The position numbers and the translations under genes are program-made. A stretch of DNA of 25,426 nucleotides from a virus, in the IMG/VR virus record IMGVR_UViG_3300021963_000598, positions 1 through 25,426 of that record; one strand, given 5' to 3'. Shown here in pieces: positions 1,215-19,230 of this stretch; the first letter of the stretch is position 1, and the number at the start of each line of letters is the position of its first letter. Under the pieces are notes generated by a model. It was not told the origin of the DNA. It saw only the letters and a program-made list of their open reading frames with translations, and ran no database searches.

Positions 1215-1349
1215 TCATTTTTGCCATTCCTTTTGTGCTTTTTTGGCTTCTTGTATAATTTTCTTTGCCGTGATCCAGATGGGGCCGGCAAACCATCCGA
1301 TTACCGCACCCCATAACAGCCAAGTCAATTTAACTAAGAATAAATCCAT
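1215..1349 (-). CDS. 44-aa single-pass membrane protein
   Basis: Short frame read directly from the sequence: begins MDLFLVKLTWLLWGAVIGWF and ends in a charged lysine- and glutamine-rich helix (KKIIQEAKKAQKEWQK). One hydrophobic segment (about residues 3-27) contains a GxxxG-like stretch, followed by a positively charged cytoplasmic-type tail. The ATG overlaps the stop of the VWA gene (TAATG), and a strong ribosome binding site (GAAGAGG) lies 7-8 bases upstream inside that gene, which strongly supports real translation. Position directly after the MoxR/VWA pair suggests a role with those proteins at the membrane, but that is inference. Confidence 0.7.
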   Translation of the reverse strand: MDLFLVKLTWLLWGAVIGWFAGPIWITAKKIIQEAKKAQKEWQK

Positions 1350-2659
1350 TATTTGGCCTCTTCATCATAGTATGCATGTTGCCCCCAGGGTGGAACAATT
1401 GTGGTGGTGCCATGCAAAATCCAAACAGTATCTGCATAATTCTCATCACCCCAGGACCCACCCGGGTAGCCATCTGTAAACACAACCAATCGCTTGGGTT
1501 CAATCTCATGTTCTTTGAGATATTTAAAAATGCACTCAAAGTCAGTACCGCCGCCACCTTTAACTTCGTAGTCACAAATGTCATCCAAATTGTCCGAGTC
1601 GTACTGAGCAGGATTGTATGCTGCTGTATCAAATGTAATTACATGAATCTTGTATGCTGGAAACGAATCCATAATGCCTTGGATCTCGCTCATAAACTCC
1701 TTGAGCATAATCTCCGAAATTGATCCTGATGCATCCAATGCAATAGCAATATCAATCATGGGATCCAACTTCATTCCAGGCATTACAGCATCCATATGCC
1801 AGCCCTTGCGGCTGGCTCGCATCCAGGTAAAGTCAGATTTGATAGTAGACTCCAACTGCATGCGAAGCAGTTCACGCCAGTTCATTTGGGGCTCTGTCAG
1901 ATCCTTAATCAGTCTTTTAACTCCTGCTGGCAAGTTTCCGGCACCATCTGTGGTAGCAGCAGCCGCTAGCATGGCTTCTTTGATCTCGTCCTTAATAGCC
2001 CGACGATCCTCGTCTGACAGTTTAGGCCGACCTTTACCTTTTTTATCGCCGTCTTCGCCGTCTTTACCATCATCGCCGTCACCGTCCAGGTGCTCATCAA
2101 TCATTTGATCCAACAACTTACCGATGTCAATTTTGTCTGCCTTTTCGTACAAGATATCGTAAATTTCTTCAGAGCTCATGCCGTCGTATTTGGCATCATA
2201 CAGGCACGGTACAGTGGTAATCTTTTCACCTACTTTGTGTTTAATTAAATCGGCGTTGACACAGTAGTCTGCGGCAATGTTAAACAACTGAGGATTGCGA
2301 TCTCCACACCGGCCAGTATGATCATATACACAATGCAATACCTCATGTCCAAACAAGAATTCAATTTCTTTGGGACGTAGCATTTTAATGAAACGGCTAT
2401 TGTAGTAAAAATTACGACCATCTGTTGCAGCGGTGCCGCACCATTCGTCTGCGTTGACCAGTTTGAGCCTTGTGGCCAAATTACCAAAGAACGATGCTTT
2501 GAGCAACAGTCCCACTCGAGCAGTAATTAACATTTCTCGAACTTCGCGATCCTCTTTGGCCACAGTAGGTCCCAACAAATTCTTAAATTTATCGGCCTCT
2601 TTTTTGTTGGCAGTGCCCACAACTTTGGCGTGTAACACGGTTGGATTAAAATGTAGCAC
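1349..2659 (-). CDS. VWA-like protein with N-terminal putative metallopeptidase domain (DUF2201-type)
   Basis: 436 aa. The N-terminal half carries a zinc-protease-like motif HEVLH (residues 105-109) within FLFGHEVLHCVYDH, followed by NIAADYCVN, typical of DUF2201 putative metallopeptidases. Residues about 190-210 form a Gly/Asp/Lys-rich linker. The C-terminal half is a VWA-like domain with MIDAS residues DASGS (309-313), the GGGGTD loop (368-373) and FTDG (394-397), which should bind a divalent metal. Such proteins pair with MoxR-family ATPases and are thought to act as metal-dependent remodelling or chaperone systems. The matching MoxR gene is immediately upstream. Whether the peptidase centre is active here is unknown. 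Substrate in phage biology is not known to me. Confidence 0.88.
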   Translation of the reverse strand: MLHFNPTVLHAKVVGTANKKEADKFKNLLGPTVAKEDREVREMLITARVGLLLKASFFGNLATRLKLVNADEWCGTAATDGRNFYYNSRFIKMLRPKEIEFLFGHEVLHCVYDHTGRCGDRNPQLFNIAADYCVNADLIKHKVGEKITTVPCLYDAKYDGMSSEEIYDILYEKADKIDIGKLLDQMIDEHLDGDGDDGKDGEDGDKKGKGRPKLSDEDRRAIKDEIKEAMLAAAATTDGAGNLPAGVKRLIKDLTEPQMNWRELLRMQLESTIKSDFTWMRASRKGWHMDAVMPGMKLDPMIDIAIALDASGSISEIMLKEFMSEIQGIMDSFPAYKIHVITFDTAAYNPAQYDSDNLDDICDYEVKGGGGTDFECIFKYLKEHEIEPKRLVVFTDGYPGGSWGDENYADTVWILHGTTTIVPPWGQHAYYDEEAK

Positions 2660-2679
2660 GGGACTGTTCCTTTATTGTA

Positions 2680-3765
2680 TTAGGCCGAAGCCTGCAAGAT
2701 GTACTTGCCAAAACGTTGATGGAACTCATCAAAGTTCTTGAGCTTGGTAGGCAGGAATGGCAAGTCGTATGTGGTCAATGCAATACGAGCACCCATTACT
2801 GTTAGTTCTGTCTCAAAGTTCTTCATCATGTAGCCTAAGAAGTTATCGGCCATATTATGAAACTTCTTGTCTTCCACTTTGTTCTCAACTGCGGACTTGA
2901 GTTCATAGCACATGGAAATAACCAGGCTGTACATGGCACTGACTTCTTTGACCTTAAGGTCGGTGACTTTGCCGCTGAGGATGTCGCTTGGGTCCGGCAT
3001 ACGACCCGAAATCTTGCGGTGTGCCATGAACTTAACAGCAAGACCTTCGCCCACAGTACCAGCAATCAAATTCATTGTGGTGTCGTCATCACCGTCAGCT
3101 TCATCCAACAGTTGGCTTACAAAGGTCCAGGAGCGTGGGGTGGCAAAGGCACGTGAACTTGACTTGGCGTCAAAGTCATATAAGTCTTGTTTGGCAAAAC
3201 TCAAATAACCCACCACATCTTTGTGGATACGATTGTTTACAGCCCAAATCAAATAAGAAGCAAAATCCACTTTCATCTCATGATGGATGAAACGGTTAGC
3301 AAGTGGTGAAGGCATGCGATAGGTAACACCCTTGTCGCTTTCACGATTGCCAGCAGCCACCATAACAACATTATTGGGCAGGCGATACTTGCCAATGCGT
3401 CGATTCAAAATCAACTGGTATGCGGCACTTTGCACGGACGGGGGTGCGGAGTTGAGTTCGTCTAGGAACAGCACTACAATTGGATAAGGTGCTGCCATTT
3501 CCTCGTCGGGCAGTTCAATCGGGGGTGCCCAATCCATCTTGCCAAGGTCTTTGTTATAGAACGGAATACCACGGATATCTGTGGGCTCCATTTGTCCCAG
3601 GCGCAAATCAATCATGAGCCCGCCAAGCTCTTTTGCAATACTTTCAACCAGTTCACTTTTGCCGATACCTGGAGGACCCCAAAGGAAAAGAGGACGTTTA
3701 ACTTGGAATGCCTTGAGCAAGCTCTTGCGGGCCTGGGTAGCGGTAACGGTGCGGGATTCTGTCAT
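2680..3765 (-). CDS. MoxR-family AAA+ ATPase
   Basis: 361 aa. Clear AAA+ core: Walker A GPPGIGKS (30-37), Walker B VVLFLDELN (97-105), sensor-1 region VAAGN (136-140) and the arginine-finger region PSPLANRF (152-159). Family members are ATP-driven chaperones that work with VWA-domain partners. Here the partner gene follows after 20 bases, so the two almost certainly form one operon. The ATG at 3765 has AAAGGA about 9 bases upstream, and a consensus sigma-70 promoter (3809-3837) lies just ahead, embedded in the 3' end of the preceding small gene. The C-terminal third lacks recognisable motifs. Confidence 0.92.
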   Translation of the reverse strand: MTESRTVTATQARKSLLKAFQVKRPLFLWGPPGIGKSELVESIAKELGGLMIDLRLGQMEPTDIRGIPFYNKDLGKMDWAPPIELPDEEMAAPYPIVVLFLDELNSAPPSVQSAAYQLILNRRIGKYRLPNNVVMVAAGNRESDKGVTYRMPSPLANRFIHHEMKVDFASYLIWAVNNRIHKDVVGYLSFAKQDLYDFDAKSSSRAFATPRSWTFVSQLLDEADGDDDTTMNLIAGTVGEGLAVKFMAHRKISGRMPDPSDILSGKVTDLKVKEVSAMYSLVISMCYELKSAVENKVEDKKFHNMADNFLGYMMKNFETELTVMGARIALTTYDLPFLPTKLKNFDEFHQRFGKYILQASA

Positions 3766-8230: not shown

Positions 8231-8662
8231 ATGAAACATTGGCAACCGTATGTTAAAGCTGGCTGGGAAATTGTCATGGAAGCCCAGGGCAAAAGCCAAA
8301 TATTTCTAGAATCTGATGTTGAAGCTTTTCTTGTACATGTCATAGCAAGAACAATAGATAAAACCAACATTTGGGATCAACCAATTGCAATACGTGTGCT
8401 CACTGCCCAGCAATTGTCAGGCAAGACTCGGGCACTGGCATTGCAAACCATTGGCGAAGAATGTTTGTTTATCAATGGCTGGCAAATAAAACAACAGCGT
8501 TGGCCCACAAAAACTTATTTTGTAGACATGGGAGAAATTGCGTTTGGACTGGCCAGTACCAGCACTCGTCCGGCTGATAAATTATTAGAGCTTGCCGGTG
8601 ATAATTTTCAATTGATGAGTTCTGTGCTAAAAACAGCACAGTTATTGCATACAAAATGGTAG
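8231..8662 (+). CDS. unrecognised plus-strand phage protein
   Basis: 143 aa starting MKHWQPYVKAGWEIVMEAQG. No motif I recognise, no signal peptide and no transmembrane segment. The protein is mixed alpha/beta in appearance with several Trp and a middle segment RVLTAQQLSGKTRALALQ. Against the direction of nearly all neighbours, and its last two codons overlap the 3' end of the tRNA-Lys(UUU) gene encoded on the other strand. No clear ribosome binding site precedes the ATG. The coding call rests on length and sensible composition, so treat as a probable but uncharacterised gene. Confidence 0.6.
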   Translation: MKHWQPYVKAGWEIVMEAQGKSQIFLESDVEAFLVHVIARTIDKTNIWDQPIAIRVLTAQQLSGKTRALALQTIGEECLFINGWQIKQQRWPTKTYFVDMGEIAFGLASTSTRPADKLLELAGDNFQLMSSVLKTAQLLHTKW

Positions 8663-8730
8663 GCCTGCTCGGTAACGCTCCGAGTTAGTCGGATTAAAAG
8701 TCCGATACTTCACTTTAAAGTTTCAAGCCC
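8657..8730 (-). tRNA. tRNA-Lys(UUU) with non-canonical elbow
   Basis: Acceptor GGGCTTG/CAGGCCT (first pair G-U), D-arm ACTT-TAAAGTG-AAGT, anticodon arm TCGGA-CTTTTAA-TCCGA, T-arm CTCGG-AGCGTTA-CCGAG, A73, encoded CCA. The T-loop AGCGTTA lacks T54 and U55, and the D-loop lacks the GG pair. The 3' end overlaps the stop of the plus-strand gene. Confidence 0.85.
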
Positions 8731-9481: not shown

Positions 9482-9555
9482 TGGTACCCCCGGCAGGTAA
9501 CGCTCCTGCGACTCCGCGTTATCAGCACGGTGTTATACTTTTTAACTAAAGGGGC
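9482..9555 (-). tRNA. tRNA-Ile(GAU) with non-canonical elbow
   Basis: D-arm GTTA-AAAAGTA-TAAC, anticodon arm CCGTG-CTGATAA-CGCGG, T-arm GCAGG-AGCGTTA-CCTGC, A73, CCA. Acceptor GCCCCTT/CGGGGGT has a U7-C66 mismatch and wobble pairs. T-loop AGCGTTA and a D-loop without GG, as in tRNA-Lys(UUU). Confidence 0.82.
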
Positions 9556-10533: not shown

Positions 10534-10612
10534 TGGTTGCGGAGGCAGGATTCGCACCTGCGATCTCCAGCTTATGAGACTGGCGGGGACGACTGGACTC
10601 CCCTACTCCGCG
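10534..10612 (-). tRNA. initiator tRNA-fMet(CAU) with non-canonical elbow
   Basis: C1 does not pair with A72 (CGCGGAG/CTCCGCA), the bacterial initiator hallmark. Anticodon arm CCAGT-CTCATAA-GCTGG lacks the three G-C pairs usual for initiators. T-loop TGCGAAT (G55 instead of U55), and the D-loop AGTCCAGTCGT has no GG. A73, CCA. Confidence 0.85.
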
Positions 10613-10925: not shown

Positions 10926-11013
10926 TGGCGGATAGTATAGGATTCGAACCTATGCGCCCCTTTCGGAGCGACGGTTTAGCAAACCGTTGCCTTAACCACT
11001 CGGCCAACTATCC
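10926..11013 (-). tRNA. tRNA-Ser(GCU)
   Basis: Class II, 88 bases. Acceptor GGATAGT/ACTATCC, anticodon arm ACGGT-TTGCTAA-ACCGT, long variable hairpin CGCTCCGAAAGGGGCG, T-loop TTCGAAT, G73, CCA. Confidence 0.94.
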
Positions 11014-11028
11014 TTAAAACTTAAAATC

Positions 11029-11102
11029 TGGAGCGGGGTAGGAGAATCGAACTCCTGCCGTGAGCTTGGAAGGCTCTCGTTCTACCATTAAACTAACTCC
11101 GC
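11029..11102 (-). tRNA. tRNA-Gly(UCC), possibly a chimera made by the adjacent homing gene
   Basis: Acceptor GCGGAGT/ACCCCGC with an A5-C68 mismatch, D-arm GTTT-AATGGTA-GAAC, anticodon loop CTTCCAA, T-arm AGGAG-TTCGATT-CTCCT, U73, CCA. The last 15 bases of the endonuclease gene overlap its 5' end. An orphan Gly-like 5' half at 11681-11717 would pair perfectly with this 3' acceptor strand. Confidence 0.9.
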
Positions 11103-11669
11103 TTTATCTCTAATATGTTCCCAAGTTAATTCTAACTTAGACAACATATATATTTTAACATTATTTTGTGCAGAACACAAGATAATTTTATTCAAATCTT
11201 TTGTAATCAAATAATCATTTTTAGGATCTAAATAGATATCATATTCTGGCAAATAAAAATCTGGAGTATAATGTCTCTGCTTACCAGTAGAATCTATCCA
11301 CGGCATTCTTTTCGGACGATTCCAAATTATACCGTGCTTATCTAATTCTTGTGCTACTGCTAACTCATATGACGATTCTAATATAATTCCGTTATAATTA
11401 AAAGTCTTTCTATAATTCTTGCCACCAAATTCTCTATCAATTGCTATCTTAGATAGCTTTTGCTTTGTTATTTCTGAATGACCAGCATTACCATTTTTTA
11501 TTCTAGTTGCTGAAGCCATTTGTTTTTGTGCTAACTTTGGACGTGATTTGAAGAACTTACTATTTGATAAGTTCTGTTTAGTCATCCCAAACTTAGCAGC
11601 AGTTTCCAAAATAGTATGTCCGTTGTCGTAAAAACTTTGAACTTCGATCCAATTATATTTGTTTTTCAT
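11088..11669 (-). CDS. PD-(D/E)XK-type homing endonuclease in the tRNA array
   Basis: 193 aa. The N-terminal part has a helix-turn-helix-like stretch (ETAAKFGMTKQNLSNS, residues 22-37). The C-terminal part carries ESSYELAVAQEL, then TPDFYLP (135-141) and YLDPK (146-150), matching the PD-x(n)-D-x-K nuclease pattern of phage homing and related enzymes. AT-rich compared with surrounding tRNAs, which supports recent transfer. The stop lies inside tRNA-Gly(UCC), and a broken Gly-tRNA 5' half lies directly upstream of the start, so insertion probably occurred at a tRNA-Gly gene. Function inferred from fold and position. Confidence 0.8.
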   Translation of the reverse strand: MKNKYNWIEVQSFYDNGHTILETAAKFGMTKQNLSNSKFFKSRPKLAQKQMASATRIKNGNAGHSEITKQKLSKIAIDREFGGKNYRKTFNYNGIILESSYELAVAQELDKHGIIWNRPKRMPWIDSTGKQRHYTPDFYLPEYDIYLDPKNDYLITKDLNKIILCSAQNNVKIYMLSKLELTWEHIRDKAELV

Positions 11670-13398: not shown

Positions 13399-14268
13399 TT
13401 AGAAACGATGTGTCAGGCCCACACCCATTTGCTTGGTGTCTGCACTGTTGACATTGCGATAAGCAACACTGATGGCAGTATTCTTGCTCAAGGCATAATC
13501 GGCGCCCAGGTTGTATGCTTTTACATCTCCAAGCGATCGAGTGCCGTAACTGACTTTTGTAGTCACCGCGCCACTGACCCACGCTGCCCCAATCAATGCA
13601 CCAGTGCTTTCCACGGTGTTGTCCTTGTCCAAACTGTAACTAACATGTGCTTTCAGCCCTGCTAGACCAGATTGTGCAGCAACCACTGTGCTTCGTGATG
13701 TACCAGATTCAAACACAGCCACTGTGGCCTGTACAGGTCCCACTACACCTACTGCACTATATGATAGTGCTTCGGTTCCCACTGTAACTGTGCGATCAAG
13801 TGAACCACTGAAATTGCCCATGCCAGTGGTTAGAAACACAGCATCACCGCTACGAATAGTTCGTAGACTATGCACATCGCCTGCAATAGAACCATAAGCA
13901 GTTCCAAATACATCATTGCCAGTTATGGCCAAGAAATGACTGTTGAATTTACGGCCAATATCAATGGACCCCAATCGAGACGAAAGTCCTACAGTGGTCT
14001 GACGATCCCCCAGTTTAGTTTCAGTTCCAGACACAGGGTTGGTGGCAGCAACACTGGTTTCTACCACAGCACGGGCAGTCAAGCCCCCACCCAGTGACTC
14101 AGCTGCTGAGATACCAACTCTACTGCTATCACTTTTCATAGTTGTGGTACTAGACCCAGCCAGGCTGGTGTTGTCTAAAAACGGTCGTAATTGACCACTT
14201 AATGTGACCTGTGCCGACGCTGTGATAGATACCACGGCCAACATTGTCGCAATTGCGATTTTCTTCAT
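13399..14268 (-). CDS. secreted Gram-negative porin
   Basis: 289 aa from the ATG at 14268, chosen for AAAGGA 8 bases upstream. Signal peptide MKKIAIATMLAVVSITASAQ with an Ala-x-Ala cleavage site, mature start like beta-proteobacterial porins (VTLSGQLRPFLD). Repeated amphipathic beta-strands rich in Gly, Thr and Ser, with porin-like phrases (RVGISAAESLGGGLTARAVVE, ...DRQTTVGLSS...GSIDIGRKF) and a C-terminal Phe (GVGLTHRF), the outer-membrane insertion signal. Shorter than the usual 340-380 aa, so loops are probably reduced. In a phage it may alter outer-membrane permeability or replace a receptor porin to block superinfection, as proposed for lambdoid porin genes. An intrinsic terminator lies immediately upstream. 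Confidence 0.85.
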   Translation of the reverse strand: MKKIAIATMLAVVSITASAQVTLSGQLRPFLDNTSLAGSSTTTMKSDSSRVGISAAESLGGGLTARAVVETSVAATNPVSGTETKLGDRQTTVGLSSRLGSIDIGRKFNSHFLAITGNDVFGTAYGSIAGDVHSLRTIRSGDAVFLTTGMGNFSGSLDRTVTVGTEALSYSAVGVVGPVQATVAVFESGTSRSTVVAAQSGLAGLKAHVSYSLDKDNTVESTGALIGAAWVSGAVTTKVSYGTRSLGDVKAYNLGADYALSKNTAISVAYRNVNSADTKQMGVGLTHRF

Positions 14269-14284
14269 AAAATTTTCCTTTAGT

Positions 14285-14305
14285 AAAAAAACCAACTTTC
14301 GTTGG
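14285..14305 (-). terminator. intrinsic terminator in the porin leader
   Basis: CCAAC-GAAA-GTTGG followed by seven T on the minus strand, ending 16 bases before the porin ATG. Either ends upstream transcripts or works as an attenuator. Confidence 0.8.
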
Positions 14306-15010: not shown

Positions 15011-15038
15011 AAAAAGAATAGGGACCGAAGTCCCTATT
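15011..15038 (-). terminator. rho-independent terminator of the tmRNA gene
   Basis: 9-bp stem AATAGGGAC/GTCCCTATT with UUCG tetraloop on the minus strand, followed by C-TTTTT. Confidence 0.9.
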
Positions 15039-15083
15039 GCTATTTTTGGTTACAAGGCATAAGCTGCCTCGCCAGCTGGGTGC

Positions 15084-15131
15084 TTACGCAGCCATTAGGA
15101 ATTTTTCATCATTTGCAGATAAAGATTTTGC
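15084..15131 (-). other. tmRNA tag reading frame
   Basis: From GCA at 15131: tag AKSLSANDEKFLMAA then TAA (15084-15086). If the resume codon is the second GCA, the tag is ANDEKFLMAA. The -MAA end resembles ClpXP-type degrons (-LAA). Betaproteobacterial tags are of the ANDERFALAA kind, so the tag looks host-matched. Confidence 0.85.
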
Positions 15132-15260
15132 TTCTACGACCGAGTAGAGCGTCTTTCTATACTATGGGTATAGCGACTACACTTTGCCCTCAATCCTGCG
15201 GGTTTCACATTCCCGAGCTGTCCACTTGTTTACTTGTTGCCCTGTCGAAACTATGCAGGC

Positions 15261-15320
15261 CCATCAAAAACACACCAGAGGTCTTTTTGCAAAAATACTC
15301 CCAGTCCAATGTGTTTATGG
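15261..15320 (-). repeat. tmRNA intervening segment with the same CCA-clamp stem
   Basis: RNA-sense CCATAAACACA (starting with the acceptor CCA) pairs with TGTGTTTTTGATGG with a small bulge, ending at G1-G2 of the coding half. Same sequence family as spacers A-E of the tRNA array. Confidence 0.75.
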
Positions 15321-15510
15321 TGGACCTGGGGGGATTCGCACCCCCGTCCAGAACACTTTTCTATCCGCTTCATACAGCAATAACTTCAAACACTATATGG
15401 TATATCTGCACTTTTAGGTTTCCCTAGAGTAATCTGGTGTACCAGCTCTGAGATTTGATACAATCTAATCTTCTATAGTATAGACTATTATTTATCATAA
15501 CCAATACACT

Positions 15511-16386
15511 TCAAAAGACAATTTTTATATCTTTAATATTGTTGCTAATAGATTGTATATACGCTTTTGACTGTGGCAAATCTAACGATAATATATCATT
15601 GTTTATTTTAATTATTGCATTTGTCATGATATCATCTTTCTGAATAATATTAAATCGTCGATTTAATTCTTCAAAATGTTCTTCGTATTTCTTAGAACTT
15701 ATATTTCCGCTTGGTATACGAAAAATTACATCTTTGTATTTGTCAGTTAAATTGATTCCAGGAGTTGTATCTGGTCCGAATACTCTTCCTAAACTTTTGG
15801 TCAATCCAGTAGTAGACAGTGTTCCACCATCAATATAAACATCAATGGATCCTTCCACAATTGAAGGCAAAGCCTCAACAGCTGATTTAAAATTAACAAA
15901 TGTACTATTAGGGCTGAATATTTTTGCAGCTATAATTTTAGCAGCAGTTGTGTGATATCCAATTGTTAATATTTTTTTGCTATTCAACAGTTCAGGCAAA
16001 GTGTTAAAAGAGTTTGATAATCTAGTATTAAACATGACTGGAGACTCGCAGCACATGTTAATAATAGATACCATCTCTAATTCTTTAGCGTAAGTTGGAT
16101 ATTGCAATCGATTAAAAAACAGTTCAGACATGCCAGCTAGGCATTGAACTGACAATTCTGGATCTTTCAACATGTCTAAAGTAGCCAATAATCCGCCAGT
16201 GCCTGATTTAATTATAAGAATCGCTTCTGAATCATATTTTTTATTATATGACTCAACCAATGCACGACACCAGGTACCGGCAACGCCGACACCAGAGTTG
16301 GTGTATATTTTAAATTTTTTAGGTATATCAGCCATTGATATGGTTGACACAATTGCTAACAGCATTACAATAATATACTTTTTCAT
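15511..16386 (-). CDS. TctC/Bug-like periplasmic solute-binding protein
   Basis: 291 aa. Signal peptide MKKYIIVMLLAIVSTISMA, then a mature part resembling the Bug (tripartite tricarboxylate receptor) family: IYTNSGVGVAGTW near the start, TIGYHTTAAKIIAAKIF, and FVNFKSAVEALPSIVEGSIDVYIDGG, which parallels the Bug pattern of a ligand-pocket loop followed by ALTDLLGGQVDL. Bug proteins bind organic acids in the periplasm and are especially abundant in betaproteobacteria. No transporter genes are next to it, so a solo receptor role, or competition with host receptors, is possible. AT-rich; family call moderate. Confidence 0.65.
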   Translation of the reverse strand: MKKYIIVMLLAIVSTISMADIPKKFKIYTNSGVGVAGTWCRALVESYNKKYDSEAILIIKSGTGGLLATLDMLKDPELSVQCLAGMSELFFNRLQYPTYAKELEMVSIINMCCESPVMFNTRLSNSFNTLPELLNSKKILTIGYHTTAAKIIAAKIFSPNSTFVNFKSAVEALPSIVEGSIDVYIDGGTLSTTGLTKSLGRVFGPDTTPGINLTDKYKDVIFRIPSGNISSKKYEEHFEELNRRFNIIQKDDIMTNAIIKINNDILSLDLPQSKAYIQSISNNIKDIKIVF

Positions 16387-18944: not shown

Positions 18945-19230
18945 ATACCAGACTCGAACTGGTACGCATTACGCGGCGGATTTTCGTACCACTATAGTTT
19001 TCACTACCCTTTCGGTTTGTGGTCTGGACTATACCTTGACCTTTGCTTTTGCTTTAGGTCCCTGCCGTCTAGTCTCTACACGTTCGAAAGTATTTCTACT
19101 TAGGCTTCGCTCGGTATTAGCATGTTACAGCCTTCACCGAATTTGACAGGTTCTACCATTGAGATTTCTCTCAAGGCACTCAAATTGTTCTATTCAAGTC
19201 CGCTGGGTCTACCGATTCCCCCAATCTCGC
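18936..19230 (-). tRNA. tRNA-Leu(UAA) interrupted by a group I intron
   Basis: 5' exon 19196-19230: acceptor GCGAGAT, Leu-type D-arm and GCGGACTT. 3' exon 18936-18984: AAAATCCGC, class II variable arm CGCGTAATGCG, T-arm ACCAG-TTCGAGT-CTGGT, ATCTCGC, A73, CCA. Joined exons give anticodon loop CTTAAAA (UAA). The 211-base gap falls between U34 and A35, the same place as the classic cyanobacterial/plastid tRNA-Leu(UAA) intron. Confidence 0.92.
18985..19195 (-). other. group I intron (211 nt) in tRNA-Leu(UAA)
   Basis: The 5' exon ends in U, the intron ends in G (18985), and the internal guide GAGT can pair with exon ACTT to leave the U-G splice pair. Core elements on the minus strand: P4 TTCGGT (19136-19141)/ACCGAG (19110-19115), the R-type stretch AGAGACTAGACGG, and P7 GACTA (19070-19074)/TAGTC (19027-19031). 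No ORF inside. Small size and position resemble group IC3 tRNA introns. Confidence 0.88.

Follow-up and report, generated by a model that had tools for sequence, protein, structure and literature searches.

A phage-encoded two-piece-type tmRNA gene with an FLMAA-ended tag and an A18/G55 elbow

Two-piece transfer-messenger RNAs (tmRNAs), encoded by circularly permuted ssrA genes, have been found in phages before: they made up 53 of the 133 unique phage tmRNA structures reported by 2022, 50 of them aquatic (PMC9004378). As a group, phage ribosome-rescue genes are known and almost untested. Here we describe such a gene in a 25,426-base virus record with phage-type genes (IMG/VR IMGVR_UViG_3300021963_000598, positions 1 to 25,426; hereafter, the window). 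Because two-piece tmRNAs of phages are already in the literature, we class it as a further representative of a known kind; the surprise implied in an earlier note on this DNA, that a phage should carry a permuted ssrA, was misplaced.

The window carries on its minus strand a complete circularly permuted tmRNA gene of the two-piece type. The Rfam model beta_tmRNA (RF01850) matched 15431-15015 over its full length (116.8 bits, E 2.8e-35, threshold 84), tmRNA_permuted (RF04321) matched 15379-15084 (103.2 bits, E 2e-19, threshold 47), and ARAGORN called a tmRNA* at 15410-14993 on the minus strand with the tag ANDEKFLMAA. The two Rfam matches are far from chance level; the alpha_tmRNA (37 bits) and cyano (40.3 bits) models each scored below their cut-offs. 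The earlier note's identification of a permuted two-piece-type tmRNA in a phage is thereby borne out, and the model search it proposed (alpha, beta and cyano) ended in a full-length beta_tmRNA fit, not in the failure it had named as a refutation. Its extent of 15046-15400, given without a strand, had the right locus and limits somewhat too narrow.

Read along the precursor, the elements come in the order T-arm, acceptor 3′ strand, A73, CCA, spacer, acceptor 5′ strand, D region, pseudoknot region, tag, 3′ pseudoknot and terminator (Table 1). The order of the two halves and the seven acceptor pairs over a 55-base segment had been noticed at the outset, and pairing in the sequence agrees: all seven acceptor positions pair across the spacer, and the third pair is the alanine identity element G3-U70. 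Together with A73 and CCA this completes the alanine identity set. A scan with no selection on either feature gave 110 viral and 14 bacterial structural matches, every one of them with G3-U70 and A73. The tag frame, its resume context and its hydrophobic C-terminus are all intact, and the frame ends in MAA-stop, as first read. Judged by these elements, the components for alanine charging and tagging are all encoded in the window tmRNA.

Table 1. Features of the tmRNA locus and its surroundings in the window (position 1 is the first base of the record)
Feature	Coordinates	Strand	Remarks
Sigma-70-like promoter candidate	15494..15521	-	TTGTCT-16-TATGAT, upstream of tmRNA gene; consensus match only
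Whole permuted tmRNA (ssrA) gene	15015..15431	-	Limits from Rfam beta_tmRNA; acceptor half precedes coding half in the precursor
tRNA-like 3′ (acceptor) half	15318..15379	-	T-arm GGGGG-UGCGAAU-CCCCC, CAGGUCC, discriminator A, encoded CCA; G55 at 15339
T-arm	15345-15329	-	
Acceptor 3′ strand	15328-15322	-	CAGGUCC
Discriminator A (A73)	15321	-	
Encoded CCA	15320-15318	-	
Intervening segment	15263..15317	-	Exactly 55 nucleotides (nt); removal expected from known two-piece tmRNAs
Acceptor 5′ strand	15262-15256	-	GGGCCUG; G3 pairs with U70
5′ end of coding half	15244..15262	-	GGGCCUG, D region CAUAG-UUUCGAC, A18 (15252), G19 (15251)
Tag frame	15116-15084	-	GCA AAU GAU GAA AAA UUC CUA AUG GCU GCG UAA = ANDEKFLMAA-stop; preceded by UUUAUCU as resume context
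3′ pseudoknot	15039..15072	-	Stem S1 GCGAGGCA/UGCCUUGU (8 pairs), short stem S2 GCU(U)A/UAGC
Intrinsic-terminator-like hairpin	15017..15038	-	AAUAGGGACUUCGGUCCCUAUU, then CUUUUUG
Open reading frame, 185 amino acids	14440..14997	-	No confident family; directly downstream of tmRNA terminator
Porin_4 family outer-membrane porin gene	13399..14295	-	Second gene downstream of tmRNA
Phage initiator tRNA-Met	10534..10612	-	Context, outside tmRNA gene; C1:A72, CUCAUAA, A18, T loop UGCGAAU

Relatives keep the fold while the letters change. In L010, a viral contig of 4 kb with a tmRNA 90% identical to the window's over 123 tree columns, S1 reads GCAAGGUA/UACCUUGU in place of GCGAGGCA/UGCCUUGU; one two-sided change (C-G to U-A) and one one-sided change (G-U to A-U) leave the pairing in place. 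The second stem of the 3′ pseudoknot differs in its letters nearly every time among six further phage relatives, with complementarity kept (GGUUAGU/ACUAACC, ACAGGU/ACCUGU, AUGGGU/ACCCAU, GUAGGU/ACCUAC, GUAGCU/AGCUAC and GUGGG/CCCAC). An extra hairpin in the coding half is common to the window and the phage contig L006.

Scans for tag patterns, and for a T-arm pattern blind to the tag, found well over 100 permuted tmRNAs in IMG/VR viral contigs. DNA matches among GenBank phages, all permuted, were to Xanthomonas phage X1, Stenotrophomonas phage QDWS359 and Pelagibacter phage Mosig. Relying on ARAGORN undercounts the two-piece tmRNAs of phages, since it misses a permuted tmRNA with the tag ANDSQFALAA that Rfam finds at L712 4400-4900. 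On a tree of the conserved parts, from which many genes with TTCGAC in the T loop are absent, the rows nearest to the window are phage loci (L010 and L378), and the window falls inside a 93-row set (81 viral, 12 betaproteobacterial; support 88/98) apart from the alphaproteobacterial clade; branch support within this mixed set is weak. The nearest row was again viral when the tag columns were removed. Since the closest relatives are other phages, the proposal that the gene was captured from a host finds no support as a recent event. A deep betaproteobacterial-type origin of the tmRNA is likely from these comparisons, and the beta-type tmRNA together with the Porin_4 gene suggests a betaproteobacterial host.

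We consider it highly probable that the locus is an intact phage two-piece ssrA gene with its own transcription unit, whose product rescues ribosomes with host factors. We found no smpB in the window or in 14 other tmRNA-bearing viral records (up to 364 kb), using a search that was positive in 10 of 14 control genomes, and because none of these 15 records yielded the gene we presume that SmpB comes from the host. The independent rescue envisaged earlier is therefore plausible only in part, as host SmpB, alanyl-tRNA synthetase (AlaRS), RNase P and proteases would all be needed. During infection the gene most probably serves in ribosome rescue and tagging that depend on host SmpB, and the fate of the tag may be altered. 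A single transcript would arise from the gene's own unit, marked by consensus matches to a promoter and a terminator. As in known two-piece tmRNAs, RNase P would cut before GGGCCUG and 3′ processing would expose the CCA encoded in the acceptor piece; pairing visible in the sequence, in the acceptor stem and the helix next to it, would hold the pieces together. Host AlaRS would charge the RNA through G3-U70. With host SmpB it would then enter ribosomes stalled on truncated mRNA, switch them to the ANDEKFLMAA frame, release them and mark the unfinished protein for host proteases, which may keep ribosomes available to the phage while mRNA is degraded in infection. Several points weigh against this account. 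The window record (G000) is a 25-kb fragment, and smpB could lie elsewhere in the genome; expression, processing and tagging are predictions; and the coding-half fold is little more stable than shuffles (z -1.4), single-strand folding of this half being uninformative.

A phage tmRNA might instead act as a decoy or competitor, tying up host SmpB, AlaRS or stalled ribosomes and so blunting or redirecting host trans-translation with no added rescue. Phage DS6A, whose tmRNA has no tag frame, offers a precedent (PMC11915505), and such a role would suit both the C-terminus of the window tag, unlike the usual ALAA, and the lack of an smpB among our search results. A pure decoy would not need a tag frame, resume context or stop, however, and all three are intact here and kept in relatives; we think a decoy unlikely, and less likely than rescue. 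Host ssrA genes are also targets of integration, and pieces of ssrA are known from prophages (PMC9004378), which lends some weight to a functionless passenger or a decaying bacterial copy, left for example by imprecise excision. The window tmRNA nevertheless is complete, has compensatory changes and no fragment structure, and belongs to a wide viral set, and no integrase was found among the 20 window proteins scanned. Pairing and a tag frame kept across phage relatives contradict a passenger, which we disfavour and rate as very improbable. We give as little credence to a transcript that stays uncut and acts as a single permuted RNA: cleavage of the window transcript is a prediction, which leaves some room for an uncut form, but an encoded CCA, then 55 nt of spacer and a normal acceptor stem make up the known two-piece layout, in which the precursor is cut (PMC11915505, PMC9004378).

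The tag ANDEKFLMAA recurs in 14 further viral loci, and ANDExFLMAA in at least 53 viral loci from at least 29 distinct contexts and in none of the bacterial loci compared. FLMAA was the ending of none of the 56 loci from a completed AND(E/D)...MAA tag scan of 84,980 prokaryote species (species representatives; the pattern requires ANDE or ANDD at the start of the tag), in which the loci that read as tmRNA end in AMAA, PMAA or VMAA. Among 104 permuted tags in a viral T-arm sample, 24 end in MAA and 69 in LAA, a biased frequency as part of the loci first entered via tag scans. When the tree is built with the tag columns removed, LMAA requires 13 changes, at least six of them on supported branches, and for this reason phages seem to have converged on the FLMAA ending, gaining it several times. 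ClpXP and ClpAP proteases read the last tag residues, and the repeatedly gained ending probably adjusts how host proteases of this type handle tagged proteins. FLMAA could also be native to an unsampled host lineage and have been copied by phages, with no phage adaptation: MAA-ended tags occur in Accumulibacter, Gallionellaceae and Granulosicoccus, one alphaproteobacterial tag ends in ELMAA, and species representatives leave many hosts unsampled. The viral counts set against the absence of FLMAA from the prokaryote scan, and the supported changes on the tag-blind tree, speak against such copying, which we regard as possible but doubtful. A broader proposal, that many lineages independently converged on a virus-specific ANDExFLMAA tag and on an A18/G55 elbow that many phage initiator tRNAs share, a phage-run version of trans-translation that would tune the choice of proteases or factors acting during infection, is put forward tentatively. 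Whether phages redirect proteolysis of unfinished proteins is a question that the recurrent phage FLMAA opens to a simple experiment. As a separate observation, ARAGORN reported unusually long tags (such as ANADTFDFSAMSFTGNTVRGAANDSRFALAA) in the phage two-piece tmRNAs of L350, L354, L373, L215, L284 and L330; these may reflect miscalled starts or genuinely long tags.

The G18-Psi55 contact of the elbow is nearly universal in tRNA. The window tmRNA has A18/G55. Among 128 distinct beta-type or viral tmRNAs, 81 have G18/U55 and 47 have A18/G55, with no exception; a second scan with different filters gave a handful of exceptions among 181. Elbow changes on supported branches amount to at least nine independent switches, and in each of the nine pairs the two positions agree (sign test p 0.0039). 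Because positions 18 and 55 covary, the elbow fold is under selection in this tmRNA family. We found no description of 18/55 covariation in tmRNA in the searchable literature; a G at the U55 position of Caulobacter tmRNA is already published (PMC1168896). That report, and A18/G55 in most alphaproteobacterial rows read, led us to reject A18/G55 as a phage-only tmRNA state. U55 was present in 69 of 69 matches of a Pseudomonadota tmRNA T-arm sample, whose search pattern does not fit alpha genes. The LMAA ending showed no association with elbow state.

The T loop UGCGAAU of the tmRNA is also that of the phage initiator tRNA and of none of the 23 other ARAGORN tRNAs in the window. The earlier note was right about this shared variant, which fails to show common descent of the two RNAs because it occurs in many other phage tmRNAs and, as G55, in alphaproteobacterial tmRNA. 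CUCAUAA-type Met tRNAs at viral loci comprise 92 with an AG D loop and G55, 156 with GG and U55, and five others, in scans that selected on position 55 and not on 18; other viral tRNAs have U55 in 1286 of 1296 cases. At least 120 viral stretches carried the G55 initiator pattern, versus none of 398 Pseudomonadota genomes; the U55 control pattern occurred in 41 of 60 genomes. Initiator tRNAs with A18 and the T loop UGCGANU are also present in L009, L204 and L287. Matching of tmRNA and initiator elbow states within a phage was not established; few records have both, and L302 combines a G18/U55 tmRNA with a G55 initiator. The cultured phages phi92, Sugarland and pf16, suggested by BLAST as G55-initiator carriers, had U55 on direct reading. 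The elbow covariation is a clean example, supplied by nature, of a tertiary contact changing state on many occasions, and it is relevant to the question why tmRNA and some phage initiator tRNAs relax the G18-Psi55 contact.

Downstream of the tmRNA lies a porin gene whose product has PorB as its nearest solved structure and no match in 50,697 GenBank phages. A porin relative (45%) begins 32 bases past the ARAGORN tmRNA end in the phages L008, L012, L013 and L014 (L012 12287-13198), another (53%) follows the L712 tmRNA match by ~180 bases (L712 5001-5900), and a third (74%) lies ~4 kb from the L006 tmRNA (L006 5600-6493). At least four distinct phages have a porin directly or closely downstream of a tmRNA. 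From these relatives the neighbourhood is therefore conserved and no accident of assembly; that the porin alters the surface of the infected host is a guess.

Phage-type genes elsewhere in the window encode a DUF2201/VWA-like protein, a MoxR-type ATPase, a phosphoesterase, a 5′-3′ exonuclease and a GIY-YIG-like nuclease. At 1349-3765 on the minus strand the MoxR-type ATPase, 49% identical to its counterpart in jumbo phage PA5oct, adjoins the DUF2201 metallopeptidase/VWA-like protein, which PHROGs labels an HNH endonuclease. ARAGORN found 24 tRNAs and missed two that Rfam places at 8660-8730 and 9485-9555 (minus strand); much of the array is closely similar to those of L440 and L488. A group I intron match at 19003-19205 (minus strand; 51.2 bits) is just over the Rfam threshold, with different open frames on either side. 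L005, a 286-kb phage contig that also has an ANDEKFLMAA two-piece tmRNA, carries a GOLLD RNA (RF02032) at 10928-11336.

The window gene resembles those of Melnitz and other aquatic phages in being a complete permuted ssrA of a large phage with tRNAs (PMC9004378). The Melnitz gene is of the alpha/SAR11 type and comes with a glutamine riboswitch, whereas that of the window is beta-type, its tag ends in FLMAA, it belongs to another phage, and Rfam found no riboswitch in the window. Most alphaproteobacterial tmRNA rows (RF01849) have A18/G55 like the window, reading AUAG or ACAG before UCGAC with the T loop GGCGGUA; the alpha model gives only 37 bits on the window, and most alpha tags belong to the ANDN.. 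type. With betaproteobacterial two-piece tmRNAs (RF01850) the window has in common a full-length match, the gene order, the 3′ pseudoknot region and the terminal hairpin. It departs from them in its A18/G55 elbow, where all 13 bacterial beta-type rows have G18/U55 (a common trait and no formal criterion of RF01850), in its tag ending FLMAA in place of FALAA or FAMAA, and in its 55-nt spacer, compared with 4-36 nt (median 30) in the bacterial beta-type tmRNAs measured.
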